Shown here: positions 26,885 through 35,587 of the stretch, piece after piece | How the letters are laid out: each line of letters starts with the position of its first letter | How positions within the stretch are numbered: the first letter of the stretch is position 1 | NCBI GenBank assembly: GCA_903862885.1 | Contig: CAIOZU010000013.1 | Span: 1-54,121 of the forward strand | Direction of reading: 5' to 3' | Source of the DNA: an uncultured Pseudomonadota bacterium | GTDB lineage: Bacteria > Pseudomonadota > Gammaproteobacteria > Steroidobacterales > Steroidobacteraceae | DNA: 54,121 bases | Program-made: the position numbers and the translations under genes | The notes under the pieces: generated by a model | Told to the model about the DNA's origin: nothing | The model's input: only the letters and a program-made list of their open reading frames with translations | Databases searched by the model: none

Positions 26885-28618
26885 CTACGGCAACCACCAA
26901 TCGACGAACGATGCATCGGGGTTAGAGGTCCAGGTGGACTGATTGTTCTCCAGATAAAGCAAAAAGGAGTTCAGGTTAGCCACATCGTTCGGGCACAGGT
27001 AGTTCGCAAAGCCAGGCATCCCAGCATCAGAACCTGCATTAATGACGCCAGTGACCTCGCTTCCCACGATGCGAGGTCCCATGCCGCCCTTGGCGTCACC
27101 GCCATGGCAGCTATAACAATTCATGCGCATGTACGCTCTCCGACCTTCTCGCACCGCGGTGGTGACGGCCGGCGGGGTGATGCAATTGTCGGCAATAGAG
27201 ATGCTGACCGTGGCTGTTGCCGTGTTCTTTCCATCTGACGCCGTGAGGGTGAACGACGAGGTGGCTAAGGGCAGCGGCGGAGTACCTGAAATCACGCCCG
27301 TGCTGCTCGAGAGGACTAACCCAGAGGGCAGTGCGGGGCTCACTGAGTAGGTCACGGGGCCTGAAAAGTTGGTGAGCACGAAGGCCGCGGTGGGCGTGAT
27401 CGCGACGCCTCGCTTACCGTTGACTGTTTGTGTGGTCGGACTGATGCCGGTGACGGTGAGTGCTAGGGTCGCGTTAGCCGTGCCACTGGTGCCGCCATTG
27501 CCGGTGATCGTATAGGCGGTGGCGGACTGCCCCACGGTGGGTATACCGCTGATTTGACCGTTGCTCACATTGAAGCTCAGACCCGCCGGTAGCGTTGAGG
27601 GCGATAGCGAATAGGTGAGCGTCCCGACAAAACCTGCGTTAGCACTTAAGATGGAACTGGTCAGAGACCTGCCCACCGAACTGCTGACGGTTTGTGTGGC
27701 GGGGGTCAGTACGGGCTTGGGGAGCGCGACGGTGAGGGTCACGCTGGCGCTTGCACTGCCGCTGGTGGCGCCTGTGCCTGTGATCGAATAGACGGTGGTG
27801 GCCTGAGTGGCTGTGGGCGTCCCACTGATTTGGCCCGTGCTGGTGCTGAAACTTAAACCCGCCGGCAAAGCAGCCGGTGACAGGGTATAGGTCACCGTTC
27901 CAACGAAACCCGCATTGGCGCTTAGGTTTGCACTTTTTAGCGCGCTACTTACCGTACCACTCACGGTTTGTGAGGCGGGGCTCAACGTCGCTGCGGGGAG
28001 AACGACCGTTAAACTGACGCTCACCGCCGCACTGCCGCTCGTGGCGCCTGTGCCCGTGATCGTATAGACGGTGGTGGCCTGAGTGGCTGTGGGCGTCCCA
28101 CTGATTTGGCCGGTGCTGGTACTGAAACTTAAACCCGCCGGCAAAGCGGCGGGTGACAGTGCGTAGCTGAGGGTGCCGCTGAAGCGGGTCGCGCTCAGGC
28201 TCGAGGTCTTAAGCGATGTGCCTACCGTGCCATTCACGGTTTGTGAGGCGGGGCTTAGGGTGGCGACAGGAGCGGTGACCGTGAGGCTCACGCTGGCGGT
28301 TGCACTGCCGCTGGTAGCCCCCGTGCCGGTGATCGTATAAACGGTGAGGGCTTGAGCGACGGTCGGCGTTCCACTGACTTGGCCGTTGCTCGTGCTAAAA
28401 CTTAAGCCCGCTGGCAAGGCAGTCGGTGCTAACGAATACTTGACCGTACCACTAAAACCAGAGGCACTCATGCTGGTGGACTTAAGCGATGTGCCCACCG
28501 TGCCGTTCACTGTTTGTGAGGCGGGGCTCAAGGTGGCGGCCATGGCCGTGCCAGTGAGCCCTAACAGCAGCAGTAGGTGAATGCAGACAAGGCGCACGAG
28601 GGTGTGGTGAGATGTCAT
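26885..28618 (-). CDS. c-type cytochrome on five Ig-like repeats
   Basis: A 577-residue exported protein. A signal peptide (1-27) is followed by five putative Ig-like (He_PIG-type) repeats of about 90 residues at 29-119, 120-210, 211-303, 304-391 and 392-478. Each has LSPASQTV-, LPAGLSFS- and ISGTPT-like blocks. The last 99 residues form a cytochrome c domain with CYSCH (501-505) and a likely axial Met534 in AGMPGFA. Its start overlaps the XoxJ-like gene's stop as ATGA. In this position a PQQ dehydrogenase operon usually has a small cytochrome cL/XoxG; here the electron acceptor is on a long extracellular-type stalk. The electron-transfer role is inferred from context. Confidence 0.9.
   Translation of the reverse strand: MTSHHTLVRLVCIHLLLLLGLTGTAMAATLSPASQTVNGTVGTSLKSTSMSASGFSGTVKYSLAPTALPAGLSFSTSNGQVSGTPTVAQALTVYTITGTGATSGSATASVSLTVTAPVATLSPASQTVNGTVGTSLKTSSLSATRFSGTLSYALSPAALPAGLSFSTSTGQISGTPTATQATTVYTITGTGATSGSAAVSVSLTVVLPAATLSPASQTVSGTVSSALKSANLSANAGFVGTVTYTLSPAALPAGLSFSTSTGQISGTPTATQATTVYSITGTGATSGSASASVTLTVALPKPVLTPATQTVSSSVGRSLTSSILSANAGFVGTLTYSLSPSTLPAGLSFNVSNGQISGIPTVGQSATAYTITGNGGTSGTANATLALTVTGISPTTQTVNGKRGVAITPTAAFVLTNFSGPVTYSVSPALPSGLVLSSSTGVISGTPPLPLATSSFTLTASDGKNTATATVSISIADNCITPPAVTTAVREGRRAYMRMNCYSCHGGDAKGGMGPRIVGSEVTGVINAGSDAGMPGFANYLCPNDVANLNSFLLYLENNQSTWTSNPDASFVDWWLP
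27185..28534 (-). repeat. Tandem Ig-like coding repeats
   Basis: Five tandem coding units of roughly 261-279 bp. Units 2 and 3 share long nearly identical DNA stretches (around 27770-27870 and 28045-28150), which points to recent duplication or gene conversion. Units 4 and 5 are more diverged. Confidence 0.8.
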
Positions 28619-29511
28619 AGTCTCTTTACCTGTTCATTCTTGAGTGAAGTATTTAAAGGAGATTCAGATGAGAGGGTCGCGGAGACCCGCACGGGCTCTA
28701 TGACCGGGATGTGAGAGGCCAGCAGCACGTGACGAATTTCGCTGCGGTGTCTTTCCAAGGTCGCCTCGAGTTTGGCCGCAAGTTCCGTATCGTCCTTGCG
28801 CACGCCCATCGCCATGTCATAAGAAAACAGCAGTTCCGGCATATTGGGATCATTCGGAGCGGGAACAACTGCCAAGGTGTCGCGATATTTGCTCGCGAAA
28901 TACCCACCGATAGGTCCCCACACGATGGCCACATCGATCTGGCCATCGGCGACTGCCTTAATGACGAGACCCTGTGGGTCTTTAACGGAGCCTTCACCCC
29001 ACATGGAGAATCCCACAATGTTTTTGGCCAAACCATAACGACCTAAGGCTACGGCCGGTGGTGCATTTGAGCCATCATTACCTATCACGTGCAGTCCGAT
29101 GCGGAGATCCTTCAGAACCGGATCCTCATAGGAGGAAATATGCAGGTTCCGGGATTTCTTAGTCACCATCACATAGCTGGAGCGATAGTAGGGACGGGTC
29201 GCCAAGACCCGGTTAAAGCCCACGGGCACGGCCATGACGACATCGCACCGGTGAGCGCCTAAGGTTTGCCGAAAAAAGTTTTGACGTTGCTTAAGCCACG
29301 TATAACTGAGAGTGGCGTTCATGTCCTTAGCCAGAATGGCCGCGATCTGATTGTCGACGCCCTGCTGTTTTTCATTTGAGAAGGGCAGATTGTCCGGATC
29401 CGCGCACACCCGCAGTGACTCGGCTGCCCCACACCACACCGGCAGGAGCAGGGTGATGGCCACGCAGGATGCCGAGAGCCTGCGCGTCAGTGCGCACGGC
29501 CGATTCATCGC
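28615..29511 (-). CDS. XoxJ/MxaJ-like periplasmic binding protein
   Basis: A 298-residue exported solute-binding-fold protein. After a signal peptide (LLLPVWCGAA) it begins SLRVCADPDNLPFSNEKQQG and continues with ARxYYRSSYVMV-type and GLHVIGNDGSNAPPAVAL blocks. These are characteristic of the quinoprotein-dehydrogenase-associated family (MxaJ/XoxJ). Members are thought to help activate or mature PQQ alcohol dehydrogenases rather than import a solute. It lies between the dehydrogenase gene and the cytochrome gene, overlapping the latter by four bases. The ATG at 29511 gives the best signal peptide; a GTG at 29535 is possible. The symbol xoxJ is not given because the clade is uncertain. Confidence 0.88.
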   Translation of the reverse strand, partial: AMNRPCALTRRLSASCVAITLLLPVWCGAAESLRVCADPDNLPFSNEKQQGVDNQIAAILAKDMNATLSYTWLKQRQNFFRQTLGAHRCDVVMAVPVGFNRVLATRPYYRSSYVMVTKKSRNLHISSYEDPVLKDLRIGLHVIGNDGSNAPPAVALGRYGLAKNIVGFSMWGEGSVKDPQGLVIKAVADGQIDVAIVWGPIGGYFASKYRDTLAVVPAPNDPNMPELLFSYDMAMGVRKDDTELAAKLEATLERHRSEIRHVLLASHIPVIEPVRVSATLSSESPLNTSLKNEQVKRL

Positions 29512-29550
29512 GTTACTCGTTGCATTAGTCGCCACGCGCGCTGATCAGAA

Positions 29551-31509
29551 TCAAGGCAGCTTAAAGATGTGGACCCTACCGCCCCCATTGGTGGCGGTAG
29601 TGCTTGAGGTGGCGCCAGGGCAGGGCTTGCCCGAGGCCGTAAAGCTACCGGCAAGCCAACTCACCCCACTAAACACCGCAATGCGCTGCTTGCCATCGGT
29701 CCCGGTGAAGGCGATGGGGCTACCGACTGAGCTGCAGGCGTAGCCTGAGGCGTTAGGTGCCGGGTCCGTCAGCTTGGTGCGAAACAACTCGGTACCACCG
29801 CCCGCTGCCGTGCCATCGATGGCGACAAAGTCGCCCGCTAAGGTGCCGTAAAAAACTACATCGCCGGCCGTTGCCAAAATGCCCGCGTAAATGGCCGCCA
29901 TTTCGGGTTTGGCCCACAGACGTTGGCCATTGACGAAGTCCCATGCCACCAGCTCACTCATGAACCAGTGACCGGGTCCTAGCGAGGCGGGGTTGGTGCC
30001 CGGACCACCGCTGATGGAGATGTTGTTGCCCATGTATGGGGCGCCTGCGATGTACTCGGCTTGCAAGGCTTCGTAGTTCATGCAGAAGTTAAACGTCGGC
30101 ACATAAAATAAGTTCTGTGTCGGTGAAAACGCTGACGGTTCCCAGCCCTTGAGGCCAAGCGCAGACGGACAAATGTTGCTAGTGATTGCACCTTGGTGCG
30201 TTTCTTTGTTCTTACCCTTGCCAACGGGGTAGCCTGCCTGCTGATCAGAGGCGGCGTCCCAGCCCGGCATCGGATAGCCCGTGGTCAGATTGATCGCGTC
30301 CGCCCAGTTCACGGACTCTGGAATGGGGCCGTATTTGATGGCCGATAGGATCTGGCCTGACAGTCGATCAAAGGTATAGACAAAGCCATTCTTATTAAAT
30401 TGCACTAAGACTTGAGAATGGGCGACTTGATCTGGCGTCGTGATCGGCGTTGTCAGATTCAACGGGATGCTCTCACTGACGGCATCGAAATCGAACATAT
30501 CATGTGGTGTTGCTTGATAGATCCACTGCGCCTGTCCGGTAGAGGCCTTACGCGCATAGATAGAGGCGCTCCACTTATTTTCGCCCAGACGCTGGTCAGC
30601 ATTCCAAGTGCCAGGCTGGCTTGTGCCGTAGAAGAGCAAATCGTTGGCCGCGTCATAAGTGACGTCATTCCAGACGGAGCTACCGCCTTGCTGCCACATA
30701 TCACCCACACCTTGATTCCAGCTGGTTTTGCCCAGATCCGTGCCGCGGTCTTTCGCGTAGAAGGGGTTATAAATAGAGCCAATCAATACATCCGAGTCCG
30801 GCCCGGTTGTGTAGGCTTTCCATAGCAGTTTACCGGTGGCCAGATCCAATGCCTGCAGCCAACCGCGCACGGCCATTTCGCCGCTTGAGCTGCCGACGAC
30901 AACAATGGAGTTGCCAGCGGACGACTGGTTTGGGACGATCAGTACCGACCCGTTGGTGGTCACCCCGGTTCTCACGTCCGCAAGCGTCGTTCGCCACATC
31001 TGCGTGCCGACCGTGGCATCATCGCGGATAGCAATCACCGCATCGTCTAGTGTTGTATAAACGATGAGTCCTGTGCCATTGCCGGTGGTGGCGTATGCAG
31101 GGCCGCGATTGACGGTGTCACAGCAGTTCACGCCAACCGCGTAGTGGTTGACGCTTGGTGTGAAGGTCCATTTGGTTGCGCCGCTGTTGAGATCGTAGGC
31201 GATGAGTTTGTTGGGGAAGGGGGTGACGACATACAGGGTGCTCCCTACGACGAGGGGCGCGCCCATGTGGCTGCCGTTCACACCCGTCTGTAAGGTGCGC
31301 TCGAGTTGTAGGCTGGCGGCGTTTGCGGTGGTGATGTCGGTGAGTGCGCTGAAGCGGATACCATCGAGCGTGCCACCATGGCTTGTCCAGTTACTGCCTG
31401 TGCCGGTAGCCGTTGTGATCTGCGCATGACAGATGACAGTGAACGTCATCAGACAGGCGGCGAACAATAATGTCGTCGCGAATGGTTGAGGCAAAAAGCG
31501 ACGAGTCAT
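29551..31509 (-). CDS. PQQ-dependent alcohol dehydrogenase, lanthanide-type Asp pair
   Basis: A 652-residue exported quinoprotein of the methanol/ethanol family: an eight-bladed propeller with PQQ and a metal ion. Visible are a signal peptide ending CHAQ, the vicinal disulfide Cys129-Cys130 (VNCCD), Glu211 (GEMAVRG), Trp280, and the catalytic region PHDMFDFD with Asp340 and an extra Asp342. In XoxF-type enzymes this second Asp binds a lanthanide; Ca-type MxaF has Ala there. The usual metal-ligand Asn in GTGNP reads GTSQP, giving Gln298. The ATG at 31509 is preferred over a TTG at 31539. It is first in an operon with a XoxJ-like gene and a cytochrome gene. The substrate is not determined. Confidence 0.92.
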   Translation of the reverse strand: MTRRFLPQPFATTLLFAACLMTFTVICHAQITTATGTGSNWTSHGGTLDGIRFSALTDITTANAASLQLERTLQTGVNGSHMGAPLVVGSTLYVVTPFPNKLIAYDLNSGATKWTFTPSVNHYAVGVNCCDTVNRGPAYATTGNGTGLIVYTTLDDAVIAIRDDATVGTQMWRTTLADVRTGVTTNGSVLIVPNQSSAGNSIVVVGSSSGEMAVRGWLQALDLATGKLLWKAYTTGPDSDVLIGSIYNPFYAKDRGTDLGKTSWNQGVGDMWQQGGSSVWNDVTYDAANDLLFYGTSQPGTWNADQRLGENKWSASIYARKASTGQAQWIYQATPHDMFDFDAVSESIPLNLTTPITTPDQVAHSQVLVQFNKNGFVYTFDRLSGQILSAIKYGPIPESVNWADAINLTTGYPMPGWDAASDQQAGYPVGKGKNKETHQGAITSNICPSALGLKGWEPSAFSPTQNLFYVPTFNFCMNYEALQAEYIAGAPYMGNNISISGGPGTNPASLGPGHWFMSELVAWDFVNGQRLWAKPEMAAIYAGILATAGDVVFYGTLAGDFVAIDGTAAGGGTELFRTKLTDPAPNASGYACSSVGSPIAFTGTDGKQRIAVFSGVSWLAGSFTASGKPCPGATSSTTATNGGGRVHIFKLP

Positions 31510-31586
31510 CACGTGCTGAGCGGGGCGGATTAATGGCAAGCTGTTCGTGCAGTGTGGACCTCAACATCAAGGGGTTTTAGCGTTTG

Positions 31587-31592
31587 ATTATA
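31587..31592 (-). promoter_or_regulatory. Candidate -10 box for the PQQ operon
   Basis: The minus strand reads TATAAT, a perfect -10 hexamer, 78 bases before the dehydrogenase ATG. No good -35 is found 16-18 bases upstream, so an activator may be needed. A 16-bp palindrome (31612-31627) covers the expected -35 zone. Confidence 0.4.
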
Positions 31593-31611
31593 CGCCGAAT
31601 GGAGTGATCGG

Positions 31612-31634
31612 ATGCCTCAAGAGGCATTTTTTTT
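31612..31634 (+). terminator. Palindrome with T-run: terminator or operator
   Basis: ATGCCTC and GAGGCAT form a perfect 16-bp palindrome followed on the plus strand by eight T. This is a textbook intrinsic terminator, yet no plus-strand gene precedes it: the stretch to the left encodes the PQQ dehydrogenase on the other strand. It could end an antisense or small RNA, attenuate the Rap1a-like gene downstream, or serve as an operator over the PQQ promoter. Confidence 0.55.
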
Positions 31635-31751
31635 AATTCGACAGGCTTAAGTGGATAAGCAGCAACCGATAAGGGCGATCCGTTTAATGGGATAGATAGC
31701 GGGTTGATGATTATTGTTAAATGACACCGCAAGGGTGAGGCGAGGTAAATC

Positions 31752-32150
31752 ATGAAGAGGCGTGTGTTGGTAGGGCTCCTGTGCCTCCTCAGTGCGGTCT
31801 GTCGTGCAGAGCCGGGTGAAATAAAAAAACAGGCGCTGATGGCATCGACCTCGGCCAATGTTGCGGTGCGGGACGGCGCCTGGCTCAAATGGGCGTGTGA
31901 GACGCATCGGGCGTGGGATGTGGACCCGGGTACCCTTTGGAAGGGGACGGACAGTAAACAAGACAATTTGGGCGCCGGACTCTGTGCGGGCTTTATTGCC
32001 GGGGTGATGAGTGCGCCGGGCGTCCCGGCCATCGTCAGCCAACACCCATTCGCACCACAGGTCGTATTGGATTTCCTTGATCAGCACCGGATGCGTTTGG
32101 GCGAGCCGGCAGGACGGCTAGTCGTCGAGGCGCTGTCGTCTGCGCCGTGA
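31752..32150 (+). CDS. Rap1a/Tai-like exported protein
   Basis: A 132-residue protein with a signal peptide (LLCLLSAVCRAEP) and the pattern of the Rap1a/Tai family: an early WLKWACE Cys, then LCAGFIAGVM, and a helical VVLDFLDQHRMRLGEPAGRLVVEAL end. Some members are immunity proteins against type VI amidase effectors; many others occur without any effector and have no known role. No effector gene is seen here. GAGG lies upstream of the ATG. It is divergent from the PQQ operon. Confidence 0.7.
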   Translation: MKRRVLVGLLCLLSAVCRAEPGEIKKQALMASTSANVAVRDGAWLKWACETHRAWDVDPGTLWKGTDSKQDNLGAGLCAGFIAGVMSAPGVPAIVSQHPFAPQVVLDFLDQHRMRLGEPAGRLVVEALSSAP

Positions 32151-32563
32151 GCGGTGAGGAGTGTCATGCAGTCGGTCAGTAGCTAGAAACGATTGAGTGG
32201 TCACAGCAAGAGTCACTTGAACGTGCGCATCGAGGGGTATGTCTATTTACTTGAGGCTCGCTACTCATCCTCGCGCCATTGGGTTGTTCGAGCATAGCGT
32301 CGCATCCTCGGTCGTGCGGAGGGCCTCAATGGATGAAGCCACAGCCGCGAATGCGTCCATCGGATGGTGCATCTCTCATGCAAAAACGCATGGGTCTATG
32401 CGAAAACACACGGGTCGCTTAGTGAAAAACTTTCAGTGATAATCATTTGCCGTGTGCACGTGCGGCATCGCCTTAATCCATGCGATGGAATTAGCGAGCC
32501 TGTTGGTTTGTTCGTGTCAGGATGGCTGGGTGATCGTCGGGTTGAATTAACGAGGTGATCGGC
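32151..32563. other. Non-coding region with tandem 20-mers and Fur-like site
   Basis: No convincing gene lies in this 413-base gap. Two adjacent 20-mers at 32378-32397 and 32398-32417 match at 16 of 20 positions (both contain AAAAC and GGGTC). Downstream, GATAATCATTTGC (32438-32450) matches 11 of 13 positions of a 6-1-6 Fur core. These could control the MFS-MttB unit. They are suggestive only. Confidence 0.4.
32378..32417. repeat. Two tandem 20-bp direct repeats
   Basis: Each unit starts ATGC, has an A-tract, then CAC/CGC-like bases and GGGTC. The 20-bp spacing (close to two helical turns) is suited to a dimeric or tetrameric regulator. They lie about 150-190 bases before the MFS start. Confidence 0.5.
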
Positions 32564-33883
32564 ATGTCAAAGCAAACGGTGGGTGCGCGAATACCGTTTG
32601 CCGAGGTGCGCTTTGGGTCCTTTCACCGTCGTGTGGCAGTGGCCAGCATGGGCGGCGTTTTCAGTGACGGCTACGGCCTCGGGATTATCGGGGTTGCTTT
32701 GACGGGTGCAGACGCTGATTTGCACCTGAGCGCGTTGTGGGTAGGCCTGCTGGGGGGGGCTTCTTTGGCGGGGCTCTTTTTGGGCGCGCTGCTGGCGGGC
32801 CCTTTTGCCGATCAGCACGGTCGGCGTCCCCTGTTTGCGTACAACATGGGACTGTTGGCCCTGTTGTCGGTTGGACAGTTTTGGGTGCACTCCTCAGCCG
32901 CTTGGTTGCTGTTGCGTTTAAGCATTGGGTTTTTGTTGGGTACGGACTATGTGGTCAGTAAAGCCATGTTGTCCGAGTGGATGCCGAGTCGGTCGAGGCC
33001 TCGCATCATGGGCATGCTGTCCATTGCTTGGGCGGCCGGTTATGCGATCGCCTACTTCACCAGCTTTGCCTTGCTGTTTATAGGCCATGAGGCCTGGCGA
33101 TGGATGCTGTTGACCAGTGCGGTCCCGTGTCTACTCATTTTGCCCTTGCGACTGCAGATGCCTGAATCTGCGGTGTGGCTCGTGGATCATGGTCAAGCCG
33201 ATCGGGCATCGACGGTGGTGTCTCGGTATGTCAGTCCAGATGCCGCCGCCCCCGTGCCAAGTCCCGTCGCGATCGTCGCGACCGGACGGTGGCGGCAATT
33301 AGGGTCTGCCGCGTGGCGGCAGCGCACCGGGGTGGCCTGTGCCTTATTCACGTGTCAGGTCATTCCTTATTTTGCGGTCGGCACCTTTGTGTCACGCGTG
33401 TTATCGGCGTTGACCGTATCCGGCAGCTATGTGGGCGGACTGGTGTACAACGCGGCGTTACTGCTGGGCGCGGTGCTGGGGCTTGTGACGGTGGATCGGA
33501 TCGCGAGGCGTACTTTTATCGTGGGGAGCTTTGTGATTTCAGCCACGGCGATGAGTGTGTTGACTGTGGGGAGTGCGTTGCCGGGGTGGCTCACGGTCAC
33601 GCTGTTTGCCGTGTTTGCGGGCGTTTTGTCGGCGGCGTCTAACATGGTGTATGTGTATTTGCCGGAGCTGTTTCCAACGGATCTACGCGCCTCCGGTATT
33701 GGACTTGCAGTGGCTTCTAGTCGAATCGGTTCAGCCATCAGTACGTTTTTATTGCCATTGATTGTTGCAGGCTTTGGGGTACGCCCGGCGCTGGGTTGCT
33801 GTGTGATTGTGTTAGTGATTGGTGCGCTGATCTGTTTCAAATGGGCGCCGGAAACGCGTCGGCAGAGCGCGTTAATCATCTGA
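32564..33883 (+). CDS. MFS transporter, sugar/organic-acid porter type
   Basis: A 439-residue carrier with 12 predicted spans. The loop 2-3 motif reads GPFADQHGRRPLF, and YLPELFPTDLRASGIG marks the second half, both typical of the sugar porter/MHS group. The ATG at 32564 is used since GAGG lies 8-9 bases upstream. A small ORF and an MttB-type methyltransferase follow on the same strand with very short gaps, so this carrier probably imports the methyltransferase's substrate; that is inference. Confidence 0.9.
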   Translation: MSKQTVGARIPFAEVRFGSFHRRVAVASMGGVFSDGYGLGIIGVALTGADADLHLSALWVGLLGGASLAGLFLGALLAGPFADQHGRRPLFAYNMGLLALLSVGQFWVHSSAAWLLLRLSIGFLLGTDYVVSKAMLSEWMPSRSRPRIMGMLSIAWAAGYAIAYFTSFALLFIGHEAWRWMLLTSAVPCLLILPLRLQMPESAVWLVDHGQADRASTVVSRYVSPDAAAPVPSPVAIVATGRWRQLGSAAWRQRTGVACALFTCQVIPYFAVGTFVSRVLSALTVSGSYVGGLVYNAALLLGAVLGLVTVDRIARRTFIVGSFVISATAMSVLTVGSALPGWLTVTLFAVFAGVLSAASNMVYVYLPELFPTDLRASGIGLAVASSRIGSAISTFLLPLIVAGFGVRPALGCCVIVLVIGALICFKWAPETRRQSALII

Positions 33884-33911
33884 TGGATACGACTGGGATA
33901 GGAAGATTGCC

Positions 33912-34052
33912 ATGAGTCAGATTGGGTGTTGTCGACGGATGCGCAGGCACGCGGCTGTGTGTGCGCCGGGTAAGGTCTTTGGCACGCGGGGTGCTGTGCG
34001 GGATCGTTTGTTTACCGTGACTGGCTTATGTGAATCGGAGCCGTCGCTGTGA
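33912..34052 (+). CDS. Small ORF coupled to the MttB-type gene
   Basis: A 46-codon frame starts with ATG seven bases after AGGAAG and ends in TGA that overlaps the downstream GTG start as GTGA. The peptide is rich in Arg and Cys (MSQIGCCRRMRRHAAVCAPG at its start) and has no recognisable family. The strong ribosome site and the overlap argue for translation, either as a real small protein or as a device that brings ribosomes to the methyltransferase start. It could be chance. Confidence 0.4.
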   Translation: MSQIGCCRRMRRHAAVCAPGKVFGTRGAVRDRLFTVTGLCESEPSL

Positions 34053-35587
34053 GCGAGGGGATGCACCGTCGCCCGGGTGGCCGCGTGCGTCGCAGTGTGC
34101 GCGATGCGCTCCCTCAATTGCCGTGGCAGCAGGTGATCAATCCCTATGCGCCGATGGATATTTTAAGTGCAGATCAGATTGAGGCGATCCATAACACGTC
34201 GCTGCGGATTCTTGAGGAGCTAGGCATTGAATTGATGTCAGCGCGGGCGCGTGAGATTTTGCAGAGAGCCGGTGCCTCGGTCGATGAGGCCGCGGGTGTC
34301 GTGCGCCTGGATCGGGAGTTGGTGTCAAAAGCGCTCGCGCAGGCGCCTGGTCGCTTTACGTTGACCCCACGCAATGTTGATCGGCAGGTGCACTTAGGCG
34401 GTCGGCACATTAACTTCGGGCTGGTGGCGGGCCCCCCCAATGTCCACGATCGGGTACGAGGGCGGCGGTCAGGAAGCTATGAATCTTATATAGAATTCAT
34501 AAAGTTAGCGCAGTACTTTAATGTAATACACTTGATTGGCAATCAAGTCTGCGCCCCCATGGACCTGCCCGCCAACACGCGCCATTTGGACACGTATTTG
34601 GCTAATTTAAGCTATTCCGAACTCGCTTTTCATTGCACCGCCATTGGTGCGGGCAGGGCGCGGGATGGGGTGGAGATGATGGCCATCGCGCGCGGTGTCT
34701 CACTCGAGGAGATGGCGTTAAACCCAGGTGTCATAACGATTATTTCCGTTAACAGTCCGCGACGCTTTGATGAGGCGATGTCCGATGGCTTGATGGCGAT
34801 GGCCGAGATGGGGCAACCGGTGGTGATCACGCCGTTCACGCTCATGGGTGCGATGGCGCCGGTGACTTTAGCTGCCGCCCTTGCCCAACAAAATGCCGAG
34901 GCGCTGTTTGGCGTGGTGCTCGCCCAATGCGTGCGGCCGGGCACCCCCGTCATGTACGGCGCGTTCACTTCGAATGTGGATTTGCGCTCCGGTGCGCCGG
35001 CTTTTGGGACTCCGGAGAATACCAAGGCCAACGTGGCCAGCGGTCAGTTGGCACGCCGCTATGGATTGCCCTATCGCACCTCAAACGCGAGCGCGTCGAA
35101 TGCGGCCGATGCCCAAGGTGCCTATGAAACAGAAATGTCTTTGTGGGGTGCCATCCTAGGCCATGGCAATCTGATTTATCACGCTGCAGGTTGGCAGGAA
35201 GGCGGACTGACCGCATCCTTTGAAAAGCTGGTGCTCGATGTGGAAATGCTGCAAATGATGGTCGAGTTCTTAAAGCCGATTGTGGTGGATGAGGACTCAC
35301 TGGGCTTTGAGGCCATTCGTGGGGTGCCGACCGGCGGACATTTTTTTGGTGAGGCGCATACGCTCAGTCGTTACGAGCATGCGTTTTATCAACCGCTGGT
35401 GTCTAATTGGCAGAACTACGAGAACTGGCAGCTGGCGGGAAGCGAAGATGCGACGACTCGGGCGACTGGCCTATGGCAGCGTGCCTTGGCAGATTATCAG
35501 CAGCCGATGCTCGACCCCGCGATCAAAGAGGCGCTCGATGCTTATGTGCACAGACGAAAAAAAGAGATCGGTGCGGGGGAGCCTTAG
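34049..35587 (+). CDS. MttB-family methyltransferase without pyrrolysine
   Basis: A 512-residue protein of the trimethylamine methyltransferase superfamily, with INPYAPMDILSADQIEAIHNTSLRILEELGIE at the front and the TIM-barrel core (HAAGWQEGGLTASFEKLVLD region) behind. The frame has no internal amber codon, so it is a non-pyrrolysine member, like the glycine-betaine or other quaternary-amine methyltransferases. Such enzymes pass a methyl group to a corrinoid protein; no corrinoid gene is in this window. The GTG start at 34049 has CGGAG upstream and overlaps the small ORF. A substrate cannot be named. Confidence 0.88.
   Translation: MSEGMHRRPGGRVRRSVRDALPQLPWQQVINPYAPMDILSADQIEAIHNTSLRILEELGIELMSARAREILQRAGASVDEAAGVVRLDRELVSKALAQAPGRFTLTPRNVDRQVHLGGRHINFGLVAGPPNVHDRVRGRRSGSYESYIEFIKLAQYFNVIHLIGNQVCAPMDLPANTRHLDTYLANLSYSELAFHCTAIGAGRARDGVEMMAIARGVSLEEMALNPGVITIISVNSPRRFDEAMSDGLMAMAEMGQPVVITPFTLMGAMAPVTLAAALAQQNAEALFGVVLAQCVRPGTPVMYGAFTSNVDLRSGAPAFGTPENTKANVASGQLARRYGLPYRTSNASASNAADAQGAYETEMSLWGAILGHGNLIYHAAGWQEGGLTASFEKLVLDVEMLQMMVEFLKPIVVDEDSLGFEAIRGVPTGGHFFGEAHTLSRYEHAFYQPLVSNWQNYENWQLAGSEDATTRATGLWQRALADYQQPMLDPAIKEALDAYVHRRKKEIGAGEP

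Follow-up and report, generated by a model that had tools for sequence, protein, structure and literature searches.

A recurrent, apparently undescribed variant of the XoxF/XoxJ/XoxG module with Ig-like domains on its cytochrome

Little is understood of how the lanthanide methanol dehydrogenases pass on their electrons, and the acceptors vary from clade to clade. The closest described systems are the XoxF/XoxJ/XoxG modules, with which we compare an operon from a 54,121-nucleotide stretch of DNA (hereafter the window), the entire contig C13 (CAIOZU010000013.1) of the 2.79 Mb draft genome of an uncultured Steroidobacteraceae bacterium. The operon, on the minus strand, encodes a XoxF-like dehydrogenase, a XoxJ-like protein and a cytochrome with five immunoglobulin-like (Ig-like) repeats in front of its heme domain, which we call the Ig-cytochrome. 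It shares with XoxF/XoxJ/XoxG systems the gene set and order, the lanthanide-site aspartate, a J protein of family TIGR03871 and a class I cytochrome in the same slot, and differs from them in that the cytochromes of its clade bear 1 to 16 Ig domains, that the window's dehydrogenase has Gln in place of an Asn ligand, and that a Rap1a-like gene lies beside the long arrays. We conclude that it is a real, recurrent and, within the literature searched, apparently undescribed variant of the module.

He_PIG repeat proteins, which are often adhesin-like, resemble the Ig-cytochrome in their tandem Ig domains, but in the window the array is fused to a single heme domain within a metabolic operon. Planctomycete-type PSCyt proteins with Big_2 and other modules likewise combine a c-type heme and an Ig-like domain in one polypeptide, although they belong to other cytochrome families and another Ig family, and the part of the source considered here mentions no link to a PQQ (pyrroloquinoline quinone) dehydrogenase (PMC5615132). 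XoxG4 of Methylomonas and XoxG1-3, compared here by description, are dedicated or proposed c-type acceptors of XoxF, and the XoxG types are described as very divergent in the available parts of two reports (PMC5874918, PMC5723320); in contrast to the window's protein, the descriptions at hand mention no Ig domains, and XoxG4 is encoded apart from xoxF. The initial annotation knew of no described system with this layout. Within the open-licence literature, searched by title and start of abstract, no paper on an Ig-array cytochrome fusion in a XoxF operon turned up among those listed; the layout is nonetheless not unique, since seven other operons carry Ig domains.

Operon layout and encoded proteins

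In the list of open reading frames (ORFs), the three genes lie in one minus-strand operon, as the initial annotation had proposed. The dehydrogenase stop is separated from the J start by 15 bases if the GTG start is used, or by about 42 with the next ATG, and the J stop and the ATG of the Ig-cytochrome overlap as ATGA. The genes of the operon and the parts of the Ig-cytochrome are as follows.

29,551 to 31,539, minus strand: xoxF-like PQQ dehydrogenase, 662 amino acids from TTG (translation may instead begin at an ATG a few codons downstream); PF01011 and Protein Data Bank (PDB) matches
28,615 to 29,535, minus strand: xoxJ/mxaJ-like periplasmic binding protein, 306 amino acids; TIGR03871 and PDB match
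26,885 to 28,618, minus strand: Ig-cytochrome, 577 amino acids, its start overlapping the J stop; ORF and Pfam
28,538 to 28,618, minus strand: likely Sec signal peptide, residues 1-27, cleaved between AMA and A; hydrophobicity maximum from residue 10, AxA at 25-27, no lipobox
27,191 to 28,537, minus strand: five He_PIG Ig-like repeats, residues 28-476; PF05345 in five stretches, AlphaFold2
26,888 to 27,184, minus strand: C-terminal mono-heme domain, residues 479-577, with CYSCH, a conserved Met and an FVDWW tail; PF13442, fold, and kinship to small cytochromes in the same slot (loci L129, L132 and others)

The dehydrogenase matches PF01011 with 139.5 bits and the NCBIfam subfamily of PQQ methanol/ethanol dehydrogenases (TIGR03075) with 409 bits, below the cut-off of 480. 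Its top three PDB matches are 6oc5 and 6dam, named XoxF in the database, and 4mae, named methanol dehydrogenase, which we take to be a XoxF as well. In a 72-row alignment the vicinal pair C139-C140, E221, D350 and D352 are present, and Q308 replaces the Asn metal ligand; following our understanding of XoxF structures, D350 is presumably the catalytic Asp and D352 the extra lanthanide-site Asp, and we assume the roles of the Cys pair and the Asn ligand on the same grounds. The protein is thus a probable lanthanide-type (XoxF) alcohol dehydrogenase, in which Gln at the metal ligand position could alter metal preference. Gln occupies this position in 26 of the 72 rows and Asn in 46; the rows with Gln occur in two parts of the XoxF tree, and L159, which has one Ig repeat, keeps Asn.

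The window's XoxF is 58-62% identical to the proteins of six of the seven other Ig operons and 54% to that of L159, and only 47% to that of L129 from its own family. Its branch is perhaps XoxF3. In the portion of a published report considered here, cox genes adjoin some xoxF3 genes (PMC10875860). Among more distant XoxF operons, all five scanned (L103, L058, L060, L104 and L105) have, beside the operon cytochrome, a protein that combines COX2 and cytochrome c domains, which suggests that an oxidase is the usual end of the electron path; these five fall near the window's group in the XoxF tree or outside it, and no COX2-plus-cytochrome-c gene lies in the window's operon. The J protein passes the TIGR03871 cut-off of 212 with 270.6 bits, and XoxJ 6onp is its best PDB match (E 2e-40).

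The Ig-cytochrome matches Pfam He_PIG (PF05345) in five stretches with 176.8 bits against a cut-off of 24, and its residues 488-552 match Cytochrome_CBB3 (PF13442) with 28 bits, just over the cut-off of 27. AlphaFold2 modelled the full-length protein with five beta-sandwich domains, the ten-residue block means running from 79 to 93 over the array. The initial description of a 577-residue protein with five Ig-like repeats and a heme domain confined to its C-terminus is confirmed. Most of the 50 PDB matches shown for the full model are cadherin or Ig-domain strings, with strong E-values and low TM-scores (0.16-0.30 by query length). The pTM of this model is only 0.44 and most of the heme part lies below 50, so the heme domain was modelled separately. 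Folded alone, it reaches a mean pLDDT of 76. Its structural matches are class I cytochromes; cd1 nitrite reductases head the list, which also includes cytochrome cL (7c90, 2d0w) and XoxG (6onq), at probabilities of 0.97-1.0 and weak E-values (0.02-0.11, none at or below 0.001). The protein is therefore a class I mono-heme cytochrome in a xoxF operon, but not a small heme-only protein.

Signals and anchors on the cytochromes were called by simple sequence rules rather than by a trained predictor. By these rules, no lipobox follows the likely cleavage site of the window's protein, nor is there one in any of the nine cytochromes checked, and no sorting tail was recognised, the protein ending in FVDWWLP. 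Outside the signal peptide the same rules find no second membrane segment, the most hydrophobic stretch (1.59, at residue 197) lying within the Ig array. The array is 37% Ser and Thr, basic (pI 9.9) and poor in charges; the heme domain is acidic (pI 5.0). We considered an Ig array borrowed from a local adhesin and set it aside, as a search of the host genome with the whole protein gave no match besides the protein itself.

The operon slot and the clade of Ig-bearing operons

With the heme domain as query, matches came from 6 of 217 genomes in the window's family (E<=1e-6) and 2 of 398 in the phylum (1e-9), the window's own genome counted both times, from 32 loci in public genomes, and from 20 of 237 genomes in the family that includes Methylovulum (1e-7). 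At L129, from the window's family, and L132, from the same phylum, XoxF-like and J genes are followed by a cytochrome of 114 or 120 amino acids without Ig domains; relative to the window, the identities at these two loci are 47 and 44% for XoxF, 46 and 45% for J, and 43 and 30% for the heme domain. To compare the slot across operons, we measured the distance from the J stop to the CxxCH motif, excluding repeats of a record, loci without J and cut-off loci, and admitting 41-159 codons after the motif; 39 of the 41 loci tried gave a value (L158 and L159 did not). The distance is 38-138 codons in the 31 operons without an Ig-like insert and 160, 164, 165, 336, 499, 676 and 1487 codons in seven Ig operons, with 278 codons at L192. 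From CxxCH to the stop, all 39 operons span 75-102 codons.

The heme domain is thus conserved while the linker varies: over 26 rows its mean column identity is 43%, with the Met invariant, and outside the Ig clade the slot holds almost nothing or short linkers, Ser/Thr/Gly-rich by eye, or SG repeats. Because related operons carry short cytochromes in the same slot, the Ig array appears as an insertion between the signal peptide and the heme domain of a standard operon cytochrome. At L192 (6,031 to 7,104, plus strand) the cytochrome of the operon bears an insert of another kind, about 200 amino acids long, Ig-like by eye and without Pfam support, which would be an independent insertion.

The initial annotation had called for a search for CxxCH domains fused to He_PIG-type repeats beside PQQ dehydrogenases, and seven further operons were found: six of the 32 public loci (L133, L134, L135, L136, L139 and L159), together with L191 from the search of the Methylovulum family. 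L133, L134, L135 and L159 have one repeat each, L191 three, the window five, L139 seven and L136 sixteen. Of the 20 genomes in the Methylovulum family that encode the heme domain, five have Ig domains (L133, L134, L135, L139 and L191), one has the other insert of L192, and 14 have neither. The Ig-bearing relatives are few and mostly from methane-oxidising groups. Five of the seven pass the Pfam He_PIG cut-off; L133 and L135, without a match up to E 10, were counted by a profile of the window's repeats (E 3.4e-25 or better) and by blastp to the array. The end of the L159 cytochrome is broken.

Two XoxF trees were built, a quick first one of 70 rows, which left out six repeat-record loci, the near-copy L145 (beside L206) and loci with fewer than 380 aligned XoxF residues, and a second of 43 chosen rows, the only one to include L129 and L132. 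In the 43-row tree the window and six Ig operons form one clade with support 100/99, and in the J tree its seven Ig rows group together (95/91); the J and heme-domain trees have 34 rows and lack L159. The Ig-cytochrome is absent from most related operons and present in a defined clade, and the layout is hence a clade feature, neither unique nor general. This qualifies the initial annotation, which had treated absence from related operons as telling against its proposal.

Within this clade the arrays appear to grow by block duplication. Repeats 1-3 of the window are 75-79% identical to one another, above any other repeat compared; because they are most alike each other, growth of the window's array seems to have taken place within its own lineage. 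The cytochrome of L136/L208 is 1560 amino acids long, with sixteen Ig repeats before one heme domain. Best matches between the 7- and 16-repeat proteins are in register for repeats 1-3, and by the pattern of best matches a three-repeat block, corresponding to repeats 3-5 of the shorter protein and single there, is apparently present four times in the longer one. Mean identity between repeats within these two proteins is about 50%, and the repeats are still Ig-like.

The divergent Rap1a-like gene and the genomic setting

Upstream of the operon lies a divergent gene, again listed with its coordinates.

31,540 to 31,751, no strand assigned: intergenic region, presumed divergent promoter region from its position between xoxF and the Rap1a-like gene
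31,752 to 32,150, plus strand: secreted Rap1a-like protein, 132 amino acids, divergent to xoxF; PF18602, with homologues divergent beside L191, L207/L139 and L208

The encoded protein has a likely signal peptide and matches PF18602 with 28.8 bits (cut-off 27.7), its three relatives scoring 30.1-36.9. When the ORFs of the window and of 179 loci (L058 and later) were searched with a profile (E<=0.1), the gene appeared only at the window, L207/L139, L208 and L191, and in copies of the window's region. For 40 loci other than the window we determined how much upstream sequence was available, requiring at least 900 bases for a call of absence. On this basis the gene accompanies all four operons with at least three repeats (window, L139/L207, L191 and L208), and is absent from both one-repeat operons with enough upstream sequence (L133 and L135) and from 27 of 27 operons without He_PIG, L192 included; one-repeat L134 and L159 and six other loci had too little upstream sequence for a call. 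We consider the Rap1a-like protein to be probably a partner of the long arrays. No paper tying Rap1a to methanol dehydrogenase operons turned up in the literature search described above.

The operon looks like a species-level gain. A XoxF match (E<=1e-60) occurs in 38 of 150 family genomes scanned, the window's own included, and in no other same-genus genome among them (13 of these are listed by name as lacking it). The sister species (G004) matches the flanks in five places, four of them at 85-89% identity, and its contigs break around the operon, so that no exact empty site was seen there. All 14 other genus genomes match the flanking DNA at least in part. Adjoining the operon in the window are a major facilitator superfamily (MFS) transporter and an MttB-family methyltransferase (32,555 to 35,587, plus strand), and relatives of one or both are present in the four inspected genomes of the genus (G004, G005, G009 and G011). 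G011 keeps these neighbouring transporter and MttB-like genes, and the 16 kb around them contain no relative of the three operon proteins or of the Rap1a-like protein.

A misbinned contig was judged unlikely, given the G004 flanking matches at 85-89% identity and the matching of flank DNA in all 14 other genus genomes. Misassembly at the repeats was likewise judged unlikely: the DNA copies are 68-76% identical over 146-273 nucleotides, both gene ends fit the operon and the layout recurs elsewhere. The 5' end of the fused gene is ATGA-coupled to J and its heme domain resembles the third gene of related operons; because both ends fit the operon and the fusion recurs in seven other records, a chance or assembly join is unlikely.

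Proposed role of the array

We propose that the operon would encode, besides the enzyme and a XoxJ-like protein, a dedicated periplasmic mono-heme cytochrome in the XoxG role. As in an ordinary XoxF/XoxG pair, XoxF would reduce the C-terminal heme domain, a step that we infer from synteny and family knowledge, and from the heme the electrons would travel on in the direction of a terminal oxidase. The cytochrome of one clade would have gained a He_PIG array between signal peptide and heme domain, with the number of domains changing by block duplication and loss. Most likely the array would be a periplasmic spacer or handle by which the carrier is made larger, slower or immobile. An ordinary periplasmic XoxF-cytochrome pair, its carrier modified in this way by a length-labile Ig spacer, has in our estimate about an even chance of being correct.

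Its main rival, unlikely but quite conceivable, is a near-neutral insertion, in which He_PIG entered the linker once, recombination changes the repeat number, and the heme works as in a soluble XoxG-like cytochrome. The linker varies widely in the family, from almost none through Ser/Thr/Gly-rich stretches and SG repeats to Ig domains, the repeat number runs from 1 to 16 with block duplications, and Ig-less relatives keep the same operon, all of which speak for this reading. However, all seven well-supported members of the XoxF clade keep at least one Ig domain in open frames of up to 1560 amino acids, the repeats of the 7- and 16-repeat proteins remain Ig-like at about 50% mean identity, and a separate Rap1a-like gene tracks the long arrays. 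In a rather unlikely alternative, an evolvable Ig array, enlarged in blocks to as many as 16 domains and tended by a dedicated Rap1a-like periplasmic partner, might fix the cytochrome at one position in the envelope, and alcohol oxidation would then run through an immobilised or outward-reaching heme in place of a diffusing carrier. The roles of both the array and the Rap1a-like protein are proposed here by inference.

An outward stalk, with the array carrying the heme to an outer-membrane or extracellular acceptor for extracellular electron transfer, is improbable. XoxF itself is periplasmic, and a heme at the surface would be parted from its donor. Strings of cadherin or Ig-like domains do resemble surface proteins, and the available parts of two reports attribute cell-surface cytochromes and extracellular electron transfer to Methylococcus capsulatus Bath (PMC4831470, PMC6281684). 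The Ig-cytochrome, however, has a single heme, no lipobox and no sorting tail; it is the sole ORF of at least 100 amino acids with a CxxCH motif in the window, and the ORF list shows no export gene in the operon. The suggestion of the initial annotation that the heme is held away from the membrane or at the cell surface thus finds no support, because a stalk must be attached to something and the sequence revealed no such point, an uncleaved signal peptide being a possible one.

Still less probable is that XoxF reduces another soluble cytochrome of the genome, the Ig protein serving in structure or sensing. At E<=0.01, Cytochrome_CBB3 is matched 15 times in the host genome if the Ig-cytochrome is counted, 12 of these matches exceeding the cut-off and some being small and soluble proteins, and XoxG4, the proposed partner of XoxF5 in Methylococcaceae, is encoded apart from xoxF according to the parts of the reports considered here (PMC5723320, PMC5874918). 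Yet the heme domain holds the slot after J in the measured related operons and is conserved there, with its invariant Met, while the linker varies. As to the separate cytochrome cL that the initial annotation had named as a possible partner, the operon contains no conventional cytochrome gene of this kind, although further c-type cytochromes are encoded in other parts of the genome. Its identification of the operon-encoded cytochrome as the likely acceptor is supported, as are the five Ig repeats on a protein that is short in most related operons.

Several observations weigh against a simple periplasmic spacer with a single shared history. If each Ig domain measures about 4 nm, as we assume, a fully extended 16-repeat array would exceed the periplasm, which strains the idea of a simple spacer there, and the 16-repeat protein has a stretch of hydrophobicity 1.86 at residue 1269. 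All eight Ig operons together reach only 74/33 in the 43-row XoxF tree and form one clade in 71% of bootstrap trees, and the first, 70-row tree needs two changes for the Ig trait. The heme-domain tree splits the Ig clade, again with two changes (one in 11% of bootstrap trees), and places the window's heme row on a long branch, nearest by path to non-Ig rows; it speaks against a cleanly shared descent of the heme domain, though the alignment has only 92 columns. The co-occurrence with the Rap1a-like gene comes from one clade, perhaps with one loss, and may reflect shared ancestry only. Finally, the PQQ of the module may come from outside the cell: no PqqE above the family cut-off was found in the host (G000, 99% complete), in a search that had no positive control, since 0 of 14 control genomes passed. 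Besides XoxF, five long frames of the host resemble PQQ dehydrogenases (5 of 5 checked, E 5e-9 to 8e-47).

Taken as a whole, the comparison suggests a length-variable spacer on a known electron-transfer system. It points to a Rap1a-like protein not tied to such operons in the literature searched, and the operons, with a constant heme domain and a spacer of almost none to 16 Ig domains, form a natural series on tether length and immobilisation in periplasmic electron transfer.

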